A DNA stretch of 64,000 bases from Hysterangium stoloniferum (taxonomy: Eukaryota > Basidiomycota > Agaricomycetes > Hysterangiales > Hysterangiaceae). The stretch spans positions 1-64,000 of the forward strand of contig WHVD01000265.1 in NCBI GenBank assembly GCA_015178975.1, in the 5' to 3' direction. The position numbers were made by a program, and so were the translations under genes. This document shows, piece by piece, positions 32,477 through 41,691 of the stretch. The notes under the pieces are model-generated. The model was not told the DNA's origin, did not search any database, and was given only the letters and a program-made list of their open reading frames with translations. The stretch's first letter is position 1, and each line of letters opens with the position of its first letter.

Positions 32477-32831
32477 CCGTGTTAGGGTACATACATGGCA
32501 GGTTTCCAGAGAAACCCACAGGATATCTGGTAGGACTTGGCTTCAGCTTATAGGCTGCACCCTCACAAGATCGTGTTGTCCAATTTCAGACAGGCGGACA
32601 GGAATTACAGGGAGTCTGGCAGGGTTCATGGGTTGAGGGGTCGTAGGCCAGAGGTCATGGGTCAAGAGGTCAGGAGTCGAGATAAATAAGAGAGATAGAT
32701 GTGTCAGAGCCCGTGGGCTCTGACTAGCGTGAGTGGTGTAATTCAAGGAGGAGTTTAGAGTGGAAAATCTATTAGATTACTGGGGGGAATCTAAGCCGAT
32801 TATCTGACTGGGATTGTATGTACAACATCTG

Positions 32832-33789
32832 TGTTACGACTGGACAATCCCGCTGGACTCCGGGCACTAACCCGTACGCCCCCACACGCTACAAGCACCA
32901 ATCATCTGTTTATAGGATTTCCTGCCCGGACTCCGTTATGTCAAGCCTCGTTACATTCGACCTCATTACGACACATATCAGTCACCGAACTTCCCCTGGA
33001 CTCCATCTCTGTCTATGTCCGTCTTCGTCCCACGCATCAGTCACCGGTCCCCGCTTAGAATCCCGTCACCGCTCTAATCGAGCCCCATTCCCATTTTAGT
33101 CAAATGACCTGTCACGATTTAGGACTCCGCTCCCGCTCCGTTTCCCGTTATGGGTTATGCTTTGTCACGATTCGGACTCCGCTCTGTTCCGTTCCGCTCT
33201 GTTCCGTTCTGTTCTGTTCTGTTCTGTTCTGTTCTGTTCTGTTCTGTTCTGTTCTGTTCTGTTCTGTTCTGTTCTGTTCTGTTCTGTTCTGTTCTGTTCT
33301 GTTCTGTTCTGTTCCGTTCCTAACACCAATTTGGTGTTTACTATTCCCGTTTTATGTTTTGTTAGTTTCGTTTCATTATTACTGGATTTGGTATGTCATG
33401 CATTCCACGGTCTATATAAACTGGCAGATGTTGTACATACAATCCAGTCAGAAAATTAGCTTAGATTCCCCCCAGTAATCTAATAATATTTTCCGCTCTA
33501 AAACCTTACTCGATTCACATCGCTCGCACTAGTCGGAGCCCACGGGCTCCGGCACATCTGTCTCTCTCAACCAACTCGACTCACGACCCACGACCTCCGA
33601 CTTACGACCCGCGACCCAACTTACGACCTACGACCCATGAACCCCACCCGGACTCCCCGGGATCCCCGTCCATCCGTTTGAAATTGGACAACACGATCTA
33701 GTGAGGGCACAGCCTATAAGCTGAAGCCAAGTCCTACCGGATATCCCACGGGTTTCTCCGGAGACCCGGCCTGTGTGTGTATCCTAACA
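32832..33789 (+). repeat. 5' LTR of element 2 (958 bp)
   Basis: Starts TGTTACGACTGG and ends GTATCCTAACA. A TATA box TATATAAA at 33413-33420 marks the U3/R region; a GGAGCCC-AC-GGGCTCC hairpin lies shortly downstream near 33534. It is 128 bp longer than the 3' LTR, almost entirely from a GTTCT repeat tract. The bases after the LTR (from 33790) do not match a primer-binding site I recognise. Confidence 0.95.
33206..33310 (+). repeat. (GTTCT)21 pentanucleotide microsatellite in the 5' LTR
   Basis: Twenty-one perfect GTTCT units, with imperfect GTTCC units on both sides. The 3' LTR has only CCATTCCATTCCGTTCC at this place. As both LTRs are identical when an element inserts, the tract expanded after insertion, or was lost from the other LTR. 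It creates artificial open frames reading FCSVL repeats. Confidence 0.97.
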
Positions 33790-33825
33790 GTATTTTCTGA
33801 CTAATACTCGCAGATTGTTTTCATT

Positions 33826-35118
33826 ATGCCACCAAGAAGAAGTACACGCACACAGTCATCAATGCCTAAACCGTCGACTCTTCATTCCCCGTTAACTCTG
33901 TATACCAGTCAGACGCTTGCGAACCAGTCAGAACCCATGGAAGAAGCCCGTATCGAAGAAGTCCCGGAAAACCTGGACAAATCAGAGAACGAGTATGATT
34001 CCGTGTCCCCCGACAAGGGCAAAGGTGTCGAAATCCCTCTCAAAAACCCTCCGCCTCTTCAACGACCGCATTTGGGGGATCCTACTTCTGAATTTTTAGC
34101 AGGAACCATAGATAAATTCATGACTCACCTGCTCGAAGAACGAAAGAAAAAGGAACAAGAACCTCCACGGTCAAAAGTCAATGCTCCAGAACCCTTCACG
34201 GGTTTCAACCCAAACAAACTCTCCACTTTCCTCATGCAATGTCGCTTCAACTTCCGTGATCGTGCCGCTGCATTCTCCACGGACTCCCAAAAAGTCAATT
34301 ACGCACTGTCATATTTGTTGGGATCCACGTTGAAATGGTTCGAACCGGCTTTTAGCGGGATTTCCGAGGAAGAGCCGCTCTGGCTTGAAAATTGGGAGGC
34401 GTTTGTTGAGGAGCTTGAAACCAACTTTGGCCCATATGACCCGACAGGAGAAGCCGAGAATAGTCTCACAAATCTTCGTATGAAGGACACGCAGCGCATC
34501 ACGGACTACATCGTCCAATTCAATAATCTTGCAGCTCGTTGTCAGTGGGGCGATCCCGCTCTCCGCCACCAATTCTATGCCGGTCTGCCGTCCCGCCTTA
34601 AAGACGAAGTCTCAAAAGGAGAAGATGGCAAGCCAAAAACCCTGTCCCGTATGTGCCTCAAAGCTCAAAACGTGGACGCACGTTATTGGGAACGTCGCAC
34701 CGAAGTTGCCTGCGAGATGTCCGCGGACAAAGTAAACAAGTCCAAGGACAAAAACAATAACACCAATTCGTCAACCAGCAACCAGAACTCCACGCAATCT
34801 GACAAGAAGAACGATAAAAAGTCTTCAAACAACAACAACAACAATAAGGACAACAAGGACAACAACAAGGGTCAACAGTCCGGCAAGCAAGCCGGAAAAC
34901 CCGACCTCTCAGGCAAACTCGGACCCGATGGCAAATTGACTCCACAAGAAAGACAATGTCGTATGGACAACAACCTCTGTCTCTTGTGCAGGAAACCCGG
35001 TCATCGAGTCCCGGAATGTCTGCTGGCAAAAGCAAACTCTTCAAAGGGTCGATCAGCCAAAGCTTCCACGGAAACCCCGTCGAAGGACAAACCGGCTGCC
35101 AATTCGAAAAAAGAGTAA
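33826..35118 (+). CDS. gag: Gag of chromovirus element 2
   Basis: 430 codons from the ATG at 33826, 36 bp after the 5' LTR. Gag forms the particle that packages element RNA. The N-terminus is Ser/Thr/Pro-rich; the retrotransposon gag domain spans about residues 120-265 (with APEPFTGFNPNKLSTFLMQC and LGSTLKWFEPAFSG). An Asn/Lys/Asp-rich linker follows at about 300-355, then a CCHC zinc knuckle CLLCRKPGHRVPEC near residue 390. The stop at 35116-35118 comes one codon after a run of six A (35107-35112). The protease frame is -1 relative to gag and overlaps its end, so -1 frameshifting is the likely route to Gag-Pol. Confidence 0.93.
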   Translation: MPPRRSTRTQSSMPKPSTLHSPLTLYTSQTLANQSEPMEEARIEEVPENLDKSENEYDSVSPDKGKGVEIPLKNPPPLQRPHLGDPTSEFLAGTIDKFMTHLLEERKKKEQEPPRSKVNAPEPFTGFNPNKLSTFLMQCRFNFRDRAAAFSTDSQKVNYALSYLLGSTLKWFEPAFSGISEEEPLWLENWEAFVEELETNFGPYDPTGEAENSLTNLRMKDTQRITDYIVQFNNLAARCQWGDPALRHQFYAGLPSRLKDEVSKGEDGKPKTLSRMCLKAQNVDARYWERRTEVACEMSADKVNKSKDKNNNTNSSTSNQNSTQSDKKNDKKSSNNNNNNKDNKDNNKGQQSGKQAGKPDLSGKLGPDGKLTPQERQCRMDNNLCLLCRKPGHRVPECLLAKANSSKGRSAKASTETPSKDKPAANSKKE

Positions 35119-38100
35119 GCAACCCCGCGGACTCCGTGCGGGTTAGGGGTTGCGTTGCCTCTCCACACATTCAAGAGTTCACTCGCCTCAACGCATCCGC
35201 TCTTTCACATTTTGATTCATTTTTCGTTAAACTTATGTCTAATATGATCCCGAAATTCGTTTTTTCAGCTCTCATAGATTCCGGCTCGACTCATTGTTTT
35301 TTTAGATACAAAATTCACGCAAAAAAATTCTTTGTCAACTTATTCGATAAATCCCGTCACACTCCGCCTCTTCGATGGCACAAGTAATTTGGTTGTTACC
35401 CAAGCTTGTGATTTACCCATCAATTTCCCTTGTGGAACATCTCAATTGGTCACTTTCTATGTGACCCAGTTAGACTCAAGTTGCTCGGTGGTCCTAGGAC
35501 ATAACTGGCTTACCCGCTACAATCCATTGATTGACTGGATAGCTAACAGTATAACATTCCAGACTCCCGCGGCGACCGAGGAAACTGCACCTGTCTCGGC
35601 CTCCACGGCACCCATGGCCTTCCTGGCACCTGCAGTCTCGAGGACTCCTGTGATCCCTACGGCACCTATAGCTTCCCCGGAACCCACGGCACCTCCGTCC
35701 ATTTCTCTGATTAATGCTGCAGCTTTTATTAGGGCTTCAAAAATGGATGGGTCCCAGGTGTTCACTATCAACTTAAAGATTGATGAAGCAACTGGATGTT
35801 TTTCAACCCCAGTATCTGAATCTGAGCAAGCCGCTGACCTAGAAGGCGTCCCGGAGAAATATCATGACTTCGCGGATGTTTTTAGCAAGCGGAAAGCTGA
35901 CCGGCTTCCGCCTCATAGAGAATACGACTTAAAAATTGATCTTGAAGATGGCGCCCAGCCACCCCTAGGACATATTTACCCACTTTCATCCACGGAACTA
36001 TCCGCAATCCGTGATTTCCTGGATGAACATTTGTCCATAGGTTTTATTCAACCCTCAAAGTCTACTTTTGGAGCACCTGTTCTCTTTGTCAGAAAAAAGG
36101 ATGGATCCCTTCGACTATGTGTTGATTTTAGAGGACTCAATGCTGTCACCAAGAAGGATAAATATCCACTCCCACTTATATCTGACCTCCTCGATGCTCC
36201 GCGGAATGCCCGGATTTACACCAAAATAGATCTCAAGCACGCCTATCATTTGGTCTGGATTGCCGCAGGCGACGAATGGAAAACCACTTTTAGAACCCGT
36301 TATGGCGCCTTTGAGTGGTTGGTCATCCCTTTTGGACTCACCAATGCTCCGTCTGTTTTTCAGTGTTTTATCAACGACATTTTCTCTGACATGCTCGGTG
36401 TATGCGTCATTGTTTACTTGGATGACATTCTTATCTACTCCGAGAATCCCGCAGAACACGACAAACAAGTCCGTGAGGTTCTCCGGAGGCTCAGACAACA
36501 TGGTTTATTCGCAAATGGTAAAAAATGTACTTTTGACACGGACTCCGTGGAATACCTAGGTTTCATGATGGGACCCGATGGTCTCCGCATGGATGAAACT
36601 AAAGTACAAGTTATCAAAGATTGGCCCGAACCCCGAAAAGTTAAAGATATACAATCCTTCCTCGGCTTTGCCAATTTTTACAGACATTTTATCTGTGGAT
36701 ATTCCAACATCACGGTACCCCTCACCTGTCTTACATGTAAGGGTACTCCGTGGAATTTTAATGATAAGTGTCAAAAAGCTTTCAATCTTTTAAAAAATTC
36801 TTTTTCTACAGCTCCTATTCTGTCGCATTGGAAACCGGACTTCCCGCTCATTGTTGAAACGGACGCCTCCGACTATGCACTTGGAGCCATTCTCTCCATC
36901 CAGGACTCTGACGGAGAAGTCCATCCCGTGGCTTTTCTGTCCTGGACTTTTACCAGAGCAGAGCTCAACTACGACGTTCATGGTAAAGAACTTCTGGCAA
37001 TCTTTTCAGCTTTCAAAGCGTGGCAACACTATTTGGAAGGTTCAGGAGCTCCTATTGACATTGTAACAGATCACAAAAACCTGGAATACTTTTCTACCAC
37101 AAAACTCTTGACCCGCCGGCAGGCCTGCTGGTCTGAATATCTCTCTGCCTTCAACATGATTATCCGTTTTCGACCCGGCCGTCTTGGCGGCAAACCCGAC
37201 GCTTTAACTAGACGATGGGACGTCTATCCTAAAGAGGGGAGCAATGACTATGCAACGGTAAATCCGCACAACCTGAAACCTATTTTCACGAATCAACAAC
37301 TTACCGCATCAGTCCGCGCAACTTTCCTCGTCAATCCCATTGTCCGTGGAATTATCATTATGGATATCGAGAAGTTACATCAAGATATTCTATCGGTGAT
37401 TCCGCTAGACCCAGTTACTAAAGCTCATCTGGACAATCCTGTGGACCCCGATAAACCTCGGTGGTCTCTTGATCAACATGGTTTCATTAGACTTGACGAT
37501 CGTATCTATGTACCAGACTCCGACGGCCTCCGCCTCAGGATCCTTCAATACAAACATGATCATCCACTCTCAGGACATTTCGGGTACAACAAAACTCTAT
37601 CATTAATAAGAAGAGCATACACTTGGCCCGGACTCTGTGGATTCATTAAGCACTATTGTAAATCTTGTACTACTTGTCCCCGCTCGAAATCTCAGCGACA
37701 CAAGCCATACGGCCTTTTGAAACAACTCCTGGTACCGGAACACCCGTGGAATTCTATCTCTATGGATTTCATTGAACACCTACCGGATTCCAAAGGCTTT
37801 TCTGCTATTCTAGTCATTGTTGACAGATTCTCAAAACAAGGTATCTTCATCCCTACTTATGATACAATTACGTCCGTGCAGTTAGCGGAACTTTTCATTA
37901 TCCACGTATTTTCCAAGCACGGAGTTCCGTCCCACGTGACTTCTGATAGAGGATCAGAGTTCGTGTCTCACTTCTTTAGATCCCTCGGAAAATCCTTGGA
38001 CATGACACTACATTTCATGTCCGGACATCATCCGGAAGGTGACGGACAAACCGAATGCGTCAACCAGACATTGGAACAATACCTCCGCATATATTGCAAT

Positions 38101-38843
38101 TATCAACAGGACAATTGGAAGACCTTGTTACCACTTGCAGAGTTTGCTTACAACAATGCACCTTCAGCCACTACTGGCATTTCCCCATTCTTTGCAAATA
38201 AAGGATATAATCCAAATATTACAGTACATCCAGAACGAAATCTCACCTCTGCTCGTGCTCAAGAGTTCACCACGGATCTCCACGAGCTCCACAAGGAACT
38301 CCAGACTGCAATATTGTCCGCGCAAGAGCAATACCAACATTCAGCGGACAAACACCGGATCCCGCCACCCAACTTCAAGATTGGCGACCGTGTTTATGTC
38401 AAAGCTCAATTCTTCAGGACTACCCGTCCATCAAAGAAGCTTGCTGAAAAATATTTAGGCCCATTTGAAATTATTGCACAAGTAGGTTCAGTTTCTTGGA
38501 CTCTACGGCTTCTGGATAGCATGCGCGCGGTACACCCGGTATTTCATGTTTCTATGCTTGAACCTTGTACTGCTAACACTATCCCAGATCGCGTGCAATC
38601 TCCGCCTCCTCCTGTCGCATCGACGGAGAACCCGAGTTTGAAATCTCACAGATTTTAGATTCAAAAATAGACAAGCATCGACGCACTTGTAAACTGCTTT
38701 ACTTGGTCAAGTTAGCGGGTTACGAGGGCACCGATGAAGAGACCTCATGGATTTTGGCCATGGAACTCAGTAATGCCACGGAAATCATTACTGACTTTCA
38801 TACAGCTTACCCACTCAAACCTGGACCATTATCGTCTCTCTGA
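34956..38843 (+). pseudogene. pol: Pol polyprotein of chromovirus element 2 (protease-RT-RNase H-integrase-chromodomain), two frameshifts
   Basis: The protease motif LIDSGSTHCF is in the frame overlapping the gag end. A run of seven T (35297-35303) then shifts the frame by one, after which RT to integrase is open to 38658. Landmarks: RT YLDD at 36415-36426, RNase H ETDASDYALGAIL near 36855, integrase zinc finger near 37550-37690, and catalytic DFIEHL, TSDRGSEF and GDGQTE near 37765, 37945 and 38040. A one-base deletion near 38615 diverts the end into a premature stop. The chromodomain continues in another frame to the stop at 38841-38843, with the cage Trp of VKWAGY replaced by Leu. Compared with element 1 it is the better preserved pol. 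Confidence 0.93.
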
Positions 38844-39054
38844 CCGCACTCCACAGACCCCGTGTTACGTTTGGACTCATTTTCATTATTCCCTGTCGCC
38901 CTATGTCTCTCTTTGCTTTTACAGGTTCTGACATGTCTTGTCAAGTCTTTAAGCGGATTCCCCGTGGACTTTGGCTTTGACTTTTAATTTTTATGTTTTT
39001 TCTTTCACGCTTTGCTTTTATGATTCAAATTATTTTTTAATTCTATACTACTTT
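38844..39054. other. Gap between convergent pol and antisense gene of element 2
   Basis: About 210 bp of T-rich sequence where the sense pol and the antisense gene end facing each other. In element 1 the gap is 96 bp. Overlapping 3' ends of the two transcripts are likely. Confidence 0.5.
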
Positions 39055-40037
39055 TCAGTCTACATTTATGGGACTGTGTTTTTTCCCCGCCTCCTCAGCT
39101 ACCTCTCCAGGAAGCTCCGTGATCTCCGCGGCAACCCCCTCCTCATCCGACCCGGCATCCTTGGAACTCCCGATCTGTGGCTCTTCATAGACATAGCCGC
39201 CATACTCCGCCAGGAACTTCCAAAACTCCTCACGGAGTCCGGACAGCTCCTTTGCCACCACAATTTGGACTTTGTTGCTCTTCCGGAGCAACTCATTTTG
39301 GGCCTTGATGCCCTCGGCGATCCGTCCAAGGACCTCGTCCAAACCGGACAACCCGTCCGTCCCACTTATGTCTCGCATCCCGGACCCCGTGGCCTGCTTA
39401 TGCACAAACGAGCACCTCGCCTTGAGGTGCATGCATTGGTAACATCCCAGACCCCGGCCGGACTTTCTGTTGCATTCCGTGTTCCAGTTGTTGCAACCGG
39501 AACACCGCAGCTTGTTCCGCGTCGGAAGACGGACTGGCGCCGCCTTCCTTGCCTTCTGTTGATATGGTCAGTTTCCGTGGGTATCCCACGGATATGAGGC
39601 CTACCTTTTGGGGGCTCTCTGGCTCCCCCTCGGACTCGGACTCCACCTCTGTCACTTTGCGCTGAAAATAACAAGTCAGTAAAGTTCGACAAGTGAGATT
39701 TGGAACTTACCTTTCCCACAACAATGGCGGCCCTCTCCGCGGCCAACCGGGTGTTCTCTGCAGCCACCCGGGCATTCTCCGCGGCCACTCGCGCAGCCTC
39801 CTCCGCCTCACGCTCCCTCTCCTTCGCGGCCTCTTCCTCCGCGGCCAACGCTTCCTGGTACTCTCTGTCCAGGGCCTCCTCGGCCTCCCTAGCCTCTCTC
39901 TCTGCTGCTTCACGAAGCTGGCACTGCTCTTCTCGCCGCACCAACAATTGGGCCGCACTCCAAGGTGCCCGATACGGAGAACCCATGGAGGGCCCTGATG
40001 TAGGCATTGGTTTTCGTGGTGTTGGTTTTGGTCCCAT
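39055..40037 (-). CDS. Antisense spliced gene of chromovirus element 2: coiled coil plus Zn2Cys6-like cluster
   Basis: Three exons on the minus strand: 40037-39711, 39661-39605 and 39555-39055, with introns 39710-39662 (GTAAGT...CTGAC...TTTTCAG) and 39604-39556 (GTAGGC...CTGAC...AACAG). Both introns are phase 0 and the joined frame has 294 codons plus stop. Exon 1: a Pro-rich start, then a long Ala/Glu/Arg helix with heptad-like repeats (ARVAAEN twice, then TRLAAER). Exon 2: acidic Ser/Glu linker. Exon 3: six cysteines CX2CX6CX9CX2CX6C (CSGC, C, CYQC, C), then a leucine-rich helical segment and an acidic tail. Fungal Zn(II)2Cys6 regulators have this cysteine spacing followed by a dimerising coil. 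Element 1 has the same three-exon plan. A DNA-binding or silencing-related role is inferred only. Confidence 0.78.
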
Positions 40038-40247
40038 AGTGACGAAGATGGGGGTAATGAAGAAGAAGAAATTTCTATTTTTTCAAAAATTTATATAGGC
40101 TCATTGCGTTTGAACCTTACCTTCCAGATCACATGACTCTTTGACACATACGTGTAACCGACATGACTTTTGACACATGCGCATAGCCGACAAGAACCTT
40201 ATCCAGGTCTAGAGCCTCTTTGGGACTTCGGCATAAAGGGAGGATAC

Positions 40248-41077
40248 TGTTACGACCGGACAATCCCCCCGGACTCCGGGCACTAACCCGTACGCGCTAC
40301 AAGCACCAATCGTCTGTTTATAGGATTTCCCACCCGGACTCCGTTACGTCAAGCCTCGTTACGTTCGACCTCATTACGACACATATCAGTCACCGGACTT
40401 CCCCCGGACTCCGTCTCTGTCTATGTCCATCTTCATCCCACGCATCAGTCACCGGTCCCCACTTAGAATCCCATCACCGCTCTAATCGAGCCCCGTTCCC
40501 GTTTTAGTCAAATGACCTGTCACGATTTAGGACTCCGCTCCCACTCCGTTTCCCGTTATGGGTTATGCTTTGTCACGATTCGGACTCCGCTCCATTCCAT
40601 TCCGTTCCTAACACCAATTTGGTATTTACTATTCCCGTTTTATGTTTTGTTAGTTTCGTTTCGTTATTACTGGATTTGGTATGTCATGCATTCCACAGTC
40701 TATATAAACTGGCAGATGTTGTACATACAATCCAGTCAGAAAATTAGCTTAGATTCCCCCCAGTAATCTAATAATATTTTCCGCTCTAAAACCTTACTCG
40801 ATTCACATCGCTCGCACTAGTCGGAGCCCACGGGCTCCGGCGCATCTGTCTCTCTCAACCAACTCAACTCACGACCCACGACCTCCGACTTACAACCCAT
40901 GACCTGACTTACGACCTATGACCCACGAACCCTGCCCGGACTCCCCGGGATCCCTGTCTGTCCGTTTGAAATTGGACAACATGATCTAGTGAGGGCGCAG
41001 CCTATAAGCTGAAGCCAAGTCCTACCAGATATCCCGCGGGTTTCTCCGGAGACCCGGCCTGTGTGTGTATCCTAACA
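40248..41077 (+). repeat. 3' LTR of element 2 (830 bp)
   Basis: TGTTACGACCGGACAATCCC to CCTAACA, TATA box at 40701-40708. It differs from the 5' LTR by scattered substitutions that are almost all transitions, plus the missing GTTCT tract and a small indel near 40295. Confidence 0.95.
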
Positions 41078-41691
41078 ATCTGCCAGACTATATAGACCAT
41101 GGAATTAATGACATACCAAATCCAGTAATGATGAAATGAAACTAGCAAAACATGAAACGAGAATAGTAAACACTAAATTTGGTGTTAGGAATGGGACGGA
41201 ATAGAGTGGAGTCTGAATCGTGACAGGTCATTTGACTAAAACGGGAATGGGGCTCTGTTAGAGGGATGACAGGTTTTCTGAGCGGGGTCCGGTGACTGAT
41301 GCGTGGGACAGAGTCGGACATAGACAGGGACGGAGTCCAGTGGGTATTCTGGTGACTGATACATGATGTAACAAAGTCGAACATGGACAAGTCTGATGTA
41401 TGGAGTCCAGGGGGAATTCCAGTAAACTGACAATTGGTGCGTCTAGGGCATGGGTGCGTATAAGTTAGTGCCCAGAGTCCGGCGGGAATTCCGGTTGTAA
41501 CAAACTGGCCCACCATCCCTGCTCTTCCCCACCCTACATTTGACCCTCTTGCCCATACCAACCAGCTACATACACATCCTGCTGCCCCCACCTACCATTA
41601 GGGTACTTTTCTCCCAACTGCTATGTATCTTAGTTATGCGACACAGTATATAAATGTATTAAATAAAAAAATAAAAAGCATGATCACATGA

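Follow-up and report, generated by a model that had tools for sequence, protein, structure and literature searches.

The 64,000-nucleotide stretch of Hysterangium stoloniferum DNA analysed here (the window) raises the question of whether a fungal retrotransposon carries, on the strand opposite to gag and pol, an intron-bearing gene of its own, and what the product of such a gene would do for the element. The element shows the hallmarks of the Ty3/gypsy group, namely LTRs, a target-site duplication, gag, and the order of reverse transcriptase, RNase H and integrase. In the window copy gag, pol and the chromodomain are separate open frames.

32827-32831 and 41078-41082: target-site duplication ATCTG, 5 bp, read from the sequence
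32832..33789, plus strand: 5' LTR (958 bp), TGTTAC...CCTAACA, by LTR comparison
33805..35118, plus strand: gag frame (Pfam Retrotrans_gag, E 2.9e-12)
35278..38658, plus strand: pol frame with reverse transcriptase, RNase H, integrase and a Tf2-1-type SH3 domain (Pfam RVT_1, E 2.3e-36; RT_RNaseH, 3.9e-32; Integrase_H2C2, 3.7e-18; rve, 4.6e-10; SH3_Tf2-1, 4e-19)
38577..38843, plus strand: chromodomain frame (Pfam Chromo, E 2.7e-5, 24.4 bits against a cut-off of 25.1)
40235..40247, plus strand: polypurine tract AAAGGGAGGATAC, from the sequence, before the 3' LTR
40248..41077, plus strand: 3' LTR (830 bp), by LTR comparison

Between the chromodomain and the 3' LTR, the minus strand holds a three-exon gene of 294 amino acids plus stop, whose exons are joined in phase 0 and have coding lengths of 327, 57 and 498 bp.

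39711..40037, minus strand: exon 1 (109 codons), proline/basic N-terminus and charged helix
39662..39710, minus strand: intron 1, 49 bp, GTAAGT...CTGAC...TTCAG
39605..39661, minus strand: exon 2 (19 codons), acidic SESEGE linker within a possible bipartite nuclear-localisation signal
39556..39604, minus strand: intron 2, 49 bp, GTAGGC...CTGAC...AACAG
39055..39555, minus strand: exon 3 (166 codons plus stop), six-cysteine cluster, heptad helix and acidic tail

This agrees with the first-pass annotation of the window, which had proposed the three antisense exons at these positions, their phase-0 joins and the two 49-bp introns with GT, CTGAC and AG; the cysteine spacing CX2CX6CX9CX2CX6C and the acidic linker (SESEGE) that it had described were also found. 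The NCBI gene model P0004 of H. stoloniferum, a prediction rather than a transcript, reads ...GK|HK... at the border of exons 1 and 2, as predicted here, and leaves out the cysteine region. Another model from this species, P0003, diverges from the three-exon structure before the fourth cysteine.

The 111 Mb genome, in 554 contigs, was searched for further copies. From the DNA search, 40 of 742 candidate places were scored, all of them at least 90% identical. Exon 3 was used for a protein search, of whose 1,214 candidates the best 150 were scored; 109 of these have an exon 3 free of stops. The aligned set of 61 sequences consists of the window copy, 39 copies contributed by the DNA search and 21 by the protein search, 20 of the latter being hand-picked for low identity or unusual frames. 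Copies L057, which is without the 5' part, and L058, which has an insertion, were excluded from the statistics, leaving 59. An uninterrupted product of 285-298 amino acids was present in 36 of the 61 aligned copies. Among the 59, the pol stretch 37555-38843 could be aligned over more than 60% of its length in 53, and the 3' LTR over at least 500 letters in 54.

A search with pol only, made without using the gene, gave 1,744 candidates, and the best 40, which are near relatives of the window copy, were scored. The antisense gene stood beside 37 of the 38 testable pol ends. Exon 3 adjoins pol in 36 places, and the place on C116 has the border of exon 1 and intron 1 at the right distance; the places on C32 and C10 reach the contig end and hence are not among the testable ones. 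At the last place, C2:324433-326012, we found the TATA pattern only, about 635 bp too near, so the gene there is probably damaged, likely by an internal deletion. By its antisense position between pol and the 3' LTR and its presence in most copies closely related to the window copy, the gene resembles an aORF-3R. Protein searches for relatives, which need shared five-residue words and scored the 8,000 best word-sharing candidates in one round, returned only P0003 and P0004, both from H. stoloniferum; conservation of the gene has therefore so far been seen within one species.

The pooled pairwise dN/dS of the antisense frame is 0.248 (95% CI 0.198-0.308, codon bootstrap, 59 copies). For the same copies the integrase gives 0.183, and the chromodomain frame, itself under selection, gives 0.232, which puts the constraint on the antisense gene at about the level of that on the chromodomain. 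A ratio below 1 had been named beforehand as a check in the first-pass annotation, as had conservation of the cysteines, and the six cysteines are kept in 353 of 354 cells across these own-genome copies. Because picking by protein favours copies with low dN (the 19 copies so picked give 0.217), the 40 copies picked by DNA were also analysed alone (0.302); the value for eight clade representatives is 0.208. Codon positions 1, 2 and 3 differ by 0.060, 0.063 and 0.148. As point estimates, dN/dS is lowest, 0.15, in the cysteine cluster and in the stretch with the putative nuclear signal and acidic linker, and highest, 0.51, in residues 133-145.

The frequency of variants was also considered. Variants shared by at least two copies comprise 194 non-synonymous and 199 synonymous changes, when compared with a neutral expectation of 2.18:1 (p 3e-15) under an assumed transition- and CpG-biased model. 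Singletons (96 non-synonymous, 67 synonymous) also fall short of this ratio (p 0.011), which indicates that the model is rough and that part of the deficit may be misfit. Variants in at least six copies (89 and 98) differ from the singletons at a Fisher p of 0.041, in the direction expected if selection acts while the elements are active and stops after insertion.

The splice AG is present in 59/59 copies at both introns, the GT in 59/59 for intron 1 and 58/59 for intron 2, and the start ATG in 59/59; CTGAC is found in intron 1 of all 61 aligned copies, while the exact CTGAC is missing from intron 2 in 8 of the 61. Splice-site positions differ by 0.004 (intron 1) and 0.062 (intron 2), compared with 0.175 and 0.199 for inner intron positions, near the synonymous rate of 0.199. 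Intron 1 ranges from 48 to 72 bp among the copies. Its length is offset from 49 by a non-multiple of 3 in 25/59 copies, and that of intron 2 in 10/59; such length changes occur in exons 1, 2 and 3 in 6/59, 1/59 and 8/59 copies, respectively. The raw counts for intron 2 and exon 3 are similar, but exon 3 is ten times as long, so the introns drift far more per base. The splice sites so kept, together with purifying selection on the frame (pooled dN/dS as above), support the separately encoded, spliced antisense gene that had been proposed.

That these introns survive retrotransposition, as the first-pass annotation had claimed, is borne out by genome-wide counts. The border of exon 1 and intron 1, the one exon-intron border counted genome-wide, occurs at 369 places against 19 in the reversed control. 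No spliced junction of either intron was found at up to 3 mismatches, although the two patterns used recognise 53 and 58, respectively, of the 59 sampled copies when their exons are joined. The absence of spliced junctions fits reverse transcription of sense RNA only: new DNA copies would be made from the sense genomic RNA alone, where splicing of these introns is impossible, and the introns would persist for that reason. They offer natural evidence for an antisense gene keeping its introns through retrotransposition.

We confirmed that the antisense gene is more than chance: its codon pattern is maintained in the 59 copies of its own genome, and so are the splice sites, the TATA box and the cysteines. 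At the level of sequence, the copies show a two-intron antisense protein-coding gene that has been kept by purifying selection while the element multiplied.

The predicted product consists of a proline/basic N-terminus, a charged helix, a basic-acidic-basic stretch (residues 109-132), the cysteines (146-176), a helix (200-245) and an acidic tail. The stretch 109-132 resembles a bipartite nuclear signal, and K109, K111, A130, R131 and K132 in it are invariant in the 59 copies.

39412..39504, minus strand: six-cysteine zinc-cluster-like motif, residues 146-176 (dN/dS as given above)
39205..39342, minus strand: heptad helix after the cysteines, residues 200-245, from sequence periodicity

Besides the cysteines, H171, K173 and R175 are kept in 59/59 copies; when compared with the other columns of exon 3, the conservation excess of the cysteines is modest (p 0.02-0.05). 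The heptad-rich helix of the first-pass annotation calls for one correction. The N-terminal helix (residues 31-100) has no significant heptad periodicity in five of six copies (p 0.052-0.92), copy L051 alone reaching p 0.042, whereas helix 200-245 is heptad-periodic in all six copies tested (p 0.005-0.035). The latter excess agrees with the dimeriser-like helix that was expected after a zinc cluster.

The fungal Zn(II)2Cys6 domain (PF00172) is defined by CX2CX6CX5-12CX2CX6-8C, and such domains have a basic run between Cys2 and Cys3 and a coiled-coil dimerisation helix after the cluster. The antisense product is like these regulators in its six-cysteine spacing and in the helix that follows, and this part of the proposed assignment stands. 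It differs in two respects. In the Pfam search that had been suggested as a check, no copy rose above the Zn_clus cut-off: the window copy scores 8.0 bits against 21, and a weak match (E up to 10) was obtained for 22 of 25 copies, with a best E of 0.18. Family membership by Pfam is thus rejected at the cut-off. Also, the stretch between Cys2 and Cys3 lacks the basic run, being NNWNTE, with no basic residue, in the window copy; many other copies read NDRNTE or SDRNTE there and have a single one. The conserved basic residues K173 and R175 lie instead between Cys5 and Cys6, in the second CX2CX6C half. Several ORFs with tandem Zn_clus domains in the same genome present a half-swapped order, where the second half of one cluster meets the first half of the next. 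Profile comparison gives a probability of 45% with this half-swapped register and 15% with canonical domains, and for this reason we call homology to Zn(II)2Cys6 domains possible only. A solved-structure search by sequence returned weak matches such as talin (best E 0.056), and an NCBIfam search returned nothing near a cut-off. As a separate observation, ORFs with several tandem Zn(2)Cys6 clusters form a multi-copy family in this genome, with members L063, L064, L065, L067 and L070 on contigs C56, C115, C85 and C550.

We give a rough probability of 0.55 to the reading in which the fungal chromovirus possesses a true accessory gene, whose spliced product is nuclear, binds zinc and DNA, and most likely tunes the element's own LTR. 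RNA polymerase II would start at an internal antisense promoter, and the transcript would be spliced twice and translated into a protein of 294 amino acids. The protein may enter the nucleus by means of the basic stretches around acidic exon 2, dimerise through the helix after the cysteines, and use the six-cysteine cluster to bind zinc and DNA. Tuning of transcription from the element's own LTR would be the likeliest function of the protein, by analogy with the HBZ/APH proteins of HTLV, which act on the 5' LTR.

HBZ of HTLV-1 is made from spliced and unspliced antisense RNA, is nuclear and lowers HTLV-1 expression (PMC10186651). The genes of HBZ and APH-2/3/4 resemble the present one in being antisense and lying at the 3' end, and they have spliced transcripts (PMC10186651), as predicted for the fungal gene. 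HBZ is nuclear with a bZIP dimerising helix (PMC10186651), while the fungal product is predicted to be nuclear and has a heptad helix. The promoter of HBZ, as described in that source, lies in the 3' LTR and its domain is bZIP; the fungal gene would use an internal promoter and a putative cysteine cluster for DNA binding. We claim no sequence relation between the two products. If the fungal product controls the LTR, it would provide a fungal-chromovirus parallel to the antisense spliced regulator of HTLV.

The closest competitor, to which we attach a clearly smaller though still appreciable probability, is that the protein acts not on LTR transcription but on the landing site or on nuclear entry of the DNA or RNA, for example as a partner of the integrase or chromodomain. 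The basic stretches flanking exon 2 and the possible DNA-binding motif fit this equally well. The chromodomain, however, is the usual targeting module of chromoviruses, and the element already has one; nor does anything tie the protein to the integrase. A point in its favour is that the antisense protein of the maize element Grande is nuclear, with no role assigned to it (PMC7264820).

The stretch upstream of the antisense ATG includes a CT-rich run as well as the following features.

40091..40099, minus strand: TATA box CCTATATAA, about 60 nt before the antisense ATG (p = 0.008 over 40090-40101)
40131..40192, minus strand: two tandem 29/30-bp units upstream of the antisense TATA box

The promoter pattern was found at 324 genomic places and at none in the reversed control, and copy L062 has three of the tandem units upstream of its TATA box. 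Positions 40135-40254 are among the most conserved of the 3.5 kb examined, with 0.025-0.026 differences per site, when compared to 0.02-0.06 for the integrase and chromodomain and 0.05-0.13 for the antisense gene; this conservation may partly serve the polypurine tract and packaging. The copies thus show a conserved upstream stretch that holds a TATA box and tandem units, and these features support the promoter which the first-pass annotation had envisaged for the gene, as far as sequence can do so. The presence of this promoter-like stretch would also suit a reading in which the antisense transcript itself is the regulator, through dsRNA or interference, the protein being secondary, as has been proposed for plant antisense genes (PMC7264820). 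We consider this improbable, as codon-level selection and conserved splice sites are needless for an antisense RNA, the fold of the 163-nt upstream stretch is nothing unusual (z 0.14), and Rfam has no match in 38800-41100.

Still less probable is that a host gene was captured and is carried as a passenger of no use to the element. The introns and TATA box are host-like, and capture has been discussed for other elements (PMC7264820). On the other hand, the gene is under purifying selection about as strong as that on the chromodomain and follows pol wherever this could be judged, with the one exception described above; no separate host parent appeared among the best 150 of the 1,214 protein candidates, which is a weak point. 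That the antisense ORF exists by chance, as the mirror image of a sense gene or as an effect of base composition, is refuted by the frame-specific substitution pattern, for although sense ORFs 39697-40098 and 39426-39665 are open in 48/59 and 50/59 copies, one sense frame of the joined exons is stop-free in 34/59 and another has a dN/dS of 0.326, this last frame has stops in 59/59 copies, the other four of the five alternative frames give dN/dS values of 1.20-1.40, and the long sense ORF 38953-39597 is open in only 10/59.

The brtn gene of Boty is reportedly the subject of Zhao et al. (2011). Boty, or BcGypsy1, of Botrytis cinerea has this antisense gene between pol and the 3' LTR (PMC7264820), a Boty-like element with both a CHROMO domain and brtn is described in PMC4227169, and brtn is mentioned as an additional ORF in PMC8365987. 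An antisense gene in a fungal chromovirus is therefore not new, since the Boty-like element already combines the two (PMC4227169). Like Boty, the present element is of the Ty3/gypsy group, comes from a fungus and has its antisense gene placed between pol and the 3' LTR (PMC7264820); Boty has a chromodomain (PMC4227169), and so does the present element by a Pfam score just under the cut-off. It differs in that the available parts of the descriptions of brtn, by which alone the two were compared, speak of no intron, zinc cluster or selection test.

In plants, aORF-3R also lie between pol and the 3' LTR, in maize Grande (gene23), rice RIRE2, Silene Retand and PvRetro13 (PMC7264820, PMC11963269). 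Grande has its own antisense promoter (PMC7264820). For Retand, DNA binding of TRP28 is predicted (PMC7264820, PMC11963269), and antisense ORFs with TRP28 occur in 97% of Retand clusters, with a suggested regulatory role (PMC11963269). The fungal gene shares with these the antisense orientation and the place, but the proteins described there are others, and no TRP28 match was obtained in Pfam: with 25 exon-3 copies searched at E up to 10, five families matched and TRP28 (PF04195) is not one of them, and window exon 1 has no match to it at E up to 1. The word 'intron' does not occur in the main text of PMC7264820 and PMC11963269, nor does 'antisense' in that of PMC3248453, which deals with fungal LTR retrotransposons. 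The titles and abstract openings of the literature searched, mostly non-subscription, included no zinc-cluster or intron-bearing antisense gene in a fungal retrotransposon. As far as these searches show, what is new here is the two selected introns and the zinc-cluster-like, probably nuclear product.

What antisense accessory genes do for LTR retrotransposons is treated as an open question in PMC7264820, which also calls for a look at spliced and antisense transcripts. A single genome here provides hundreds of copies, clear codon selection, two introns that would report the strand being expressed and a short conserved upstream stretch, so that direct tests of expression, of zinc binding and of an effect on the LTR are feasible.

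Whether the LTR carries binding sites for the product was considered with the motif CGG-N3-CCG. Five such sites occur in the 3' LTR (40270, 40335, 40405, 40581 and 40831) against 0.27 expected. Enrichment is likewise seen in pol, with 6 against 0.45, and across the remaining window sequence, with 20 against 5.9. CpG retention inside the LTR sites equals that outside (p 0.75), so the sites are not counted as evidence and are taken as a lead only; their inner positions are marginally more conserved, 5.8% of random blocks being as low.

The gene block, at about 38935-40030, has roughly twice the divergence of its flanks, with fairly sharp borders, in the 59 copies. Its third-position divergence is 0.148 compared to 0.069 in pol, and 0.104 compared to 0.043 outside CpG, so CpG decay alone does not account for the difference; at synonymous sites the antisense module shows about double the divergence of pol in these copies. 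Synonymous distances of the gene and pol are correlated (r 0.79, 1596 pairs). The gene and pol trees disagree for L050 and L039. In AU tests on pol, based on quick trees and 33 of the 53 usable copies, the gene clades were not rejected (p 0.073, 0.19 and 0.45). The pol pair L039+L049, supported at just 0.818 in the pol tree, is rejected by the gene data (p 6e-59). Exchange of the module between element lineages is the simplest idea for this divergence, and the data are suggestive of it. A fuller picture, in which the element would have its own spliced sequence-specific factor with a half-swapped zinc cluster that binds the CGG-N3-CCG arrays of the LTR and sets dosage, and in which lineages swap the module, seems to us doubtful as a whole.

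Some minor observations concern the surroundings and the decay of the element. To judge by window positions 32489-32831 and 41078-41480, the element appears to be inserted in a related LTR of opposite orientation. A search for this inverted LTR family, with 40 places scored out of 4,459 candidates, was followed at four sampled loci; none has the antisense gene, which carries little weight as these loci may be solo LTRs. Beside an LTR of this family, the minus strand of L078 (1-704) has an open frame of 234 amino acids, which may belong to another mobile element. In the 5' LTR, TTCTG pentamers form a long run at 33178-33320 that the element's 3' LTR lacks, so the pair diverged there after insertion. 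With the LTR ends placed 1-2 bases off the borders listed above, comparison of the two LTRs over 829 aligned positions gives 42 differences, of which 41 are transitions and 29 lie in CpG context. Among the best 150 of the 1,214 exon-3 candidates, 41 have stops, and TGA is the only stop in all but three of these. The TGA-only stops and the LTR transitions together point to C-to-T decay in H. stoloniferum.
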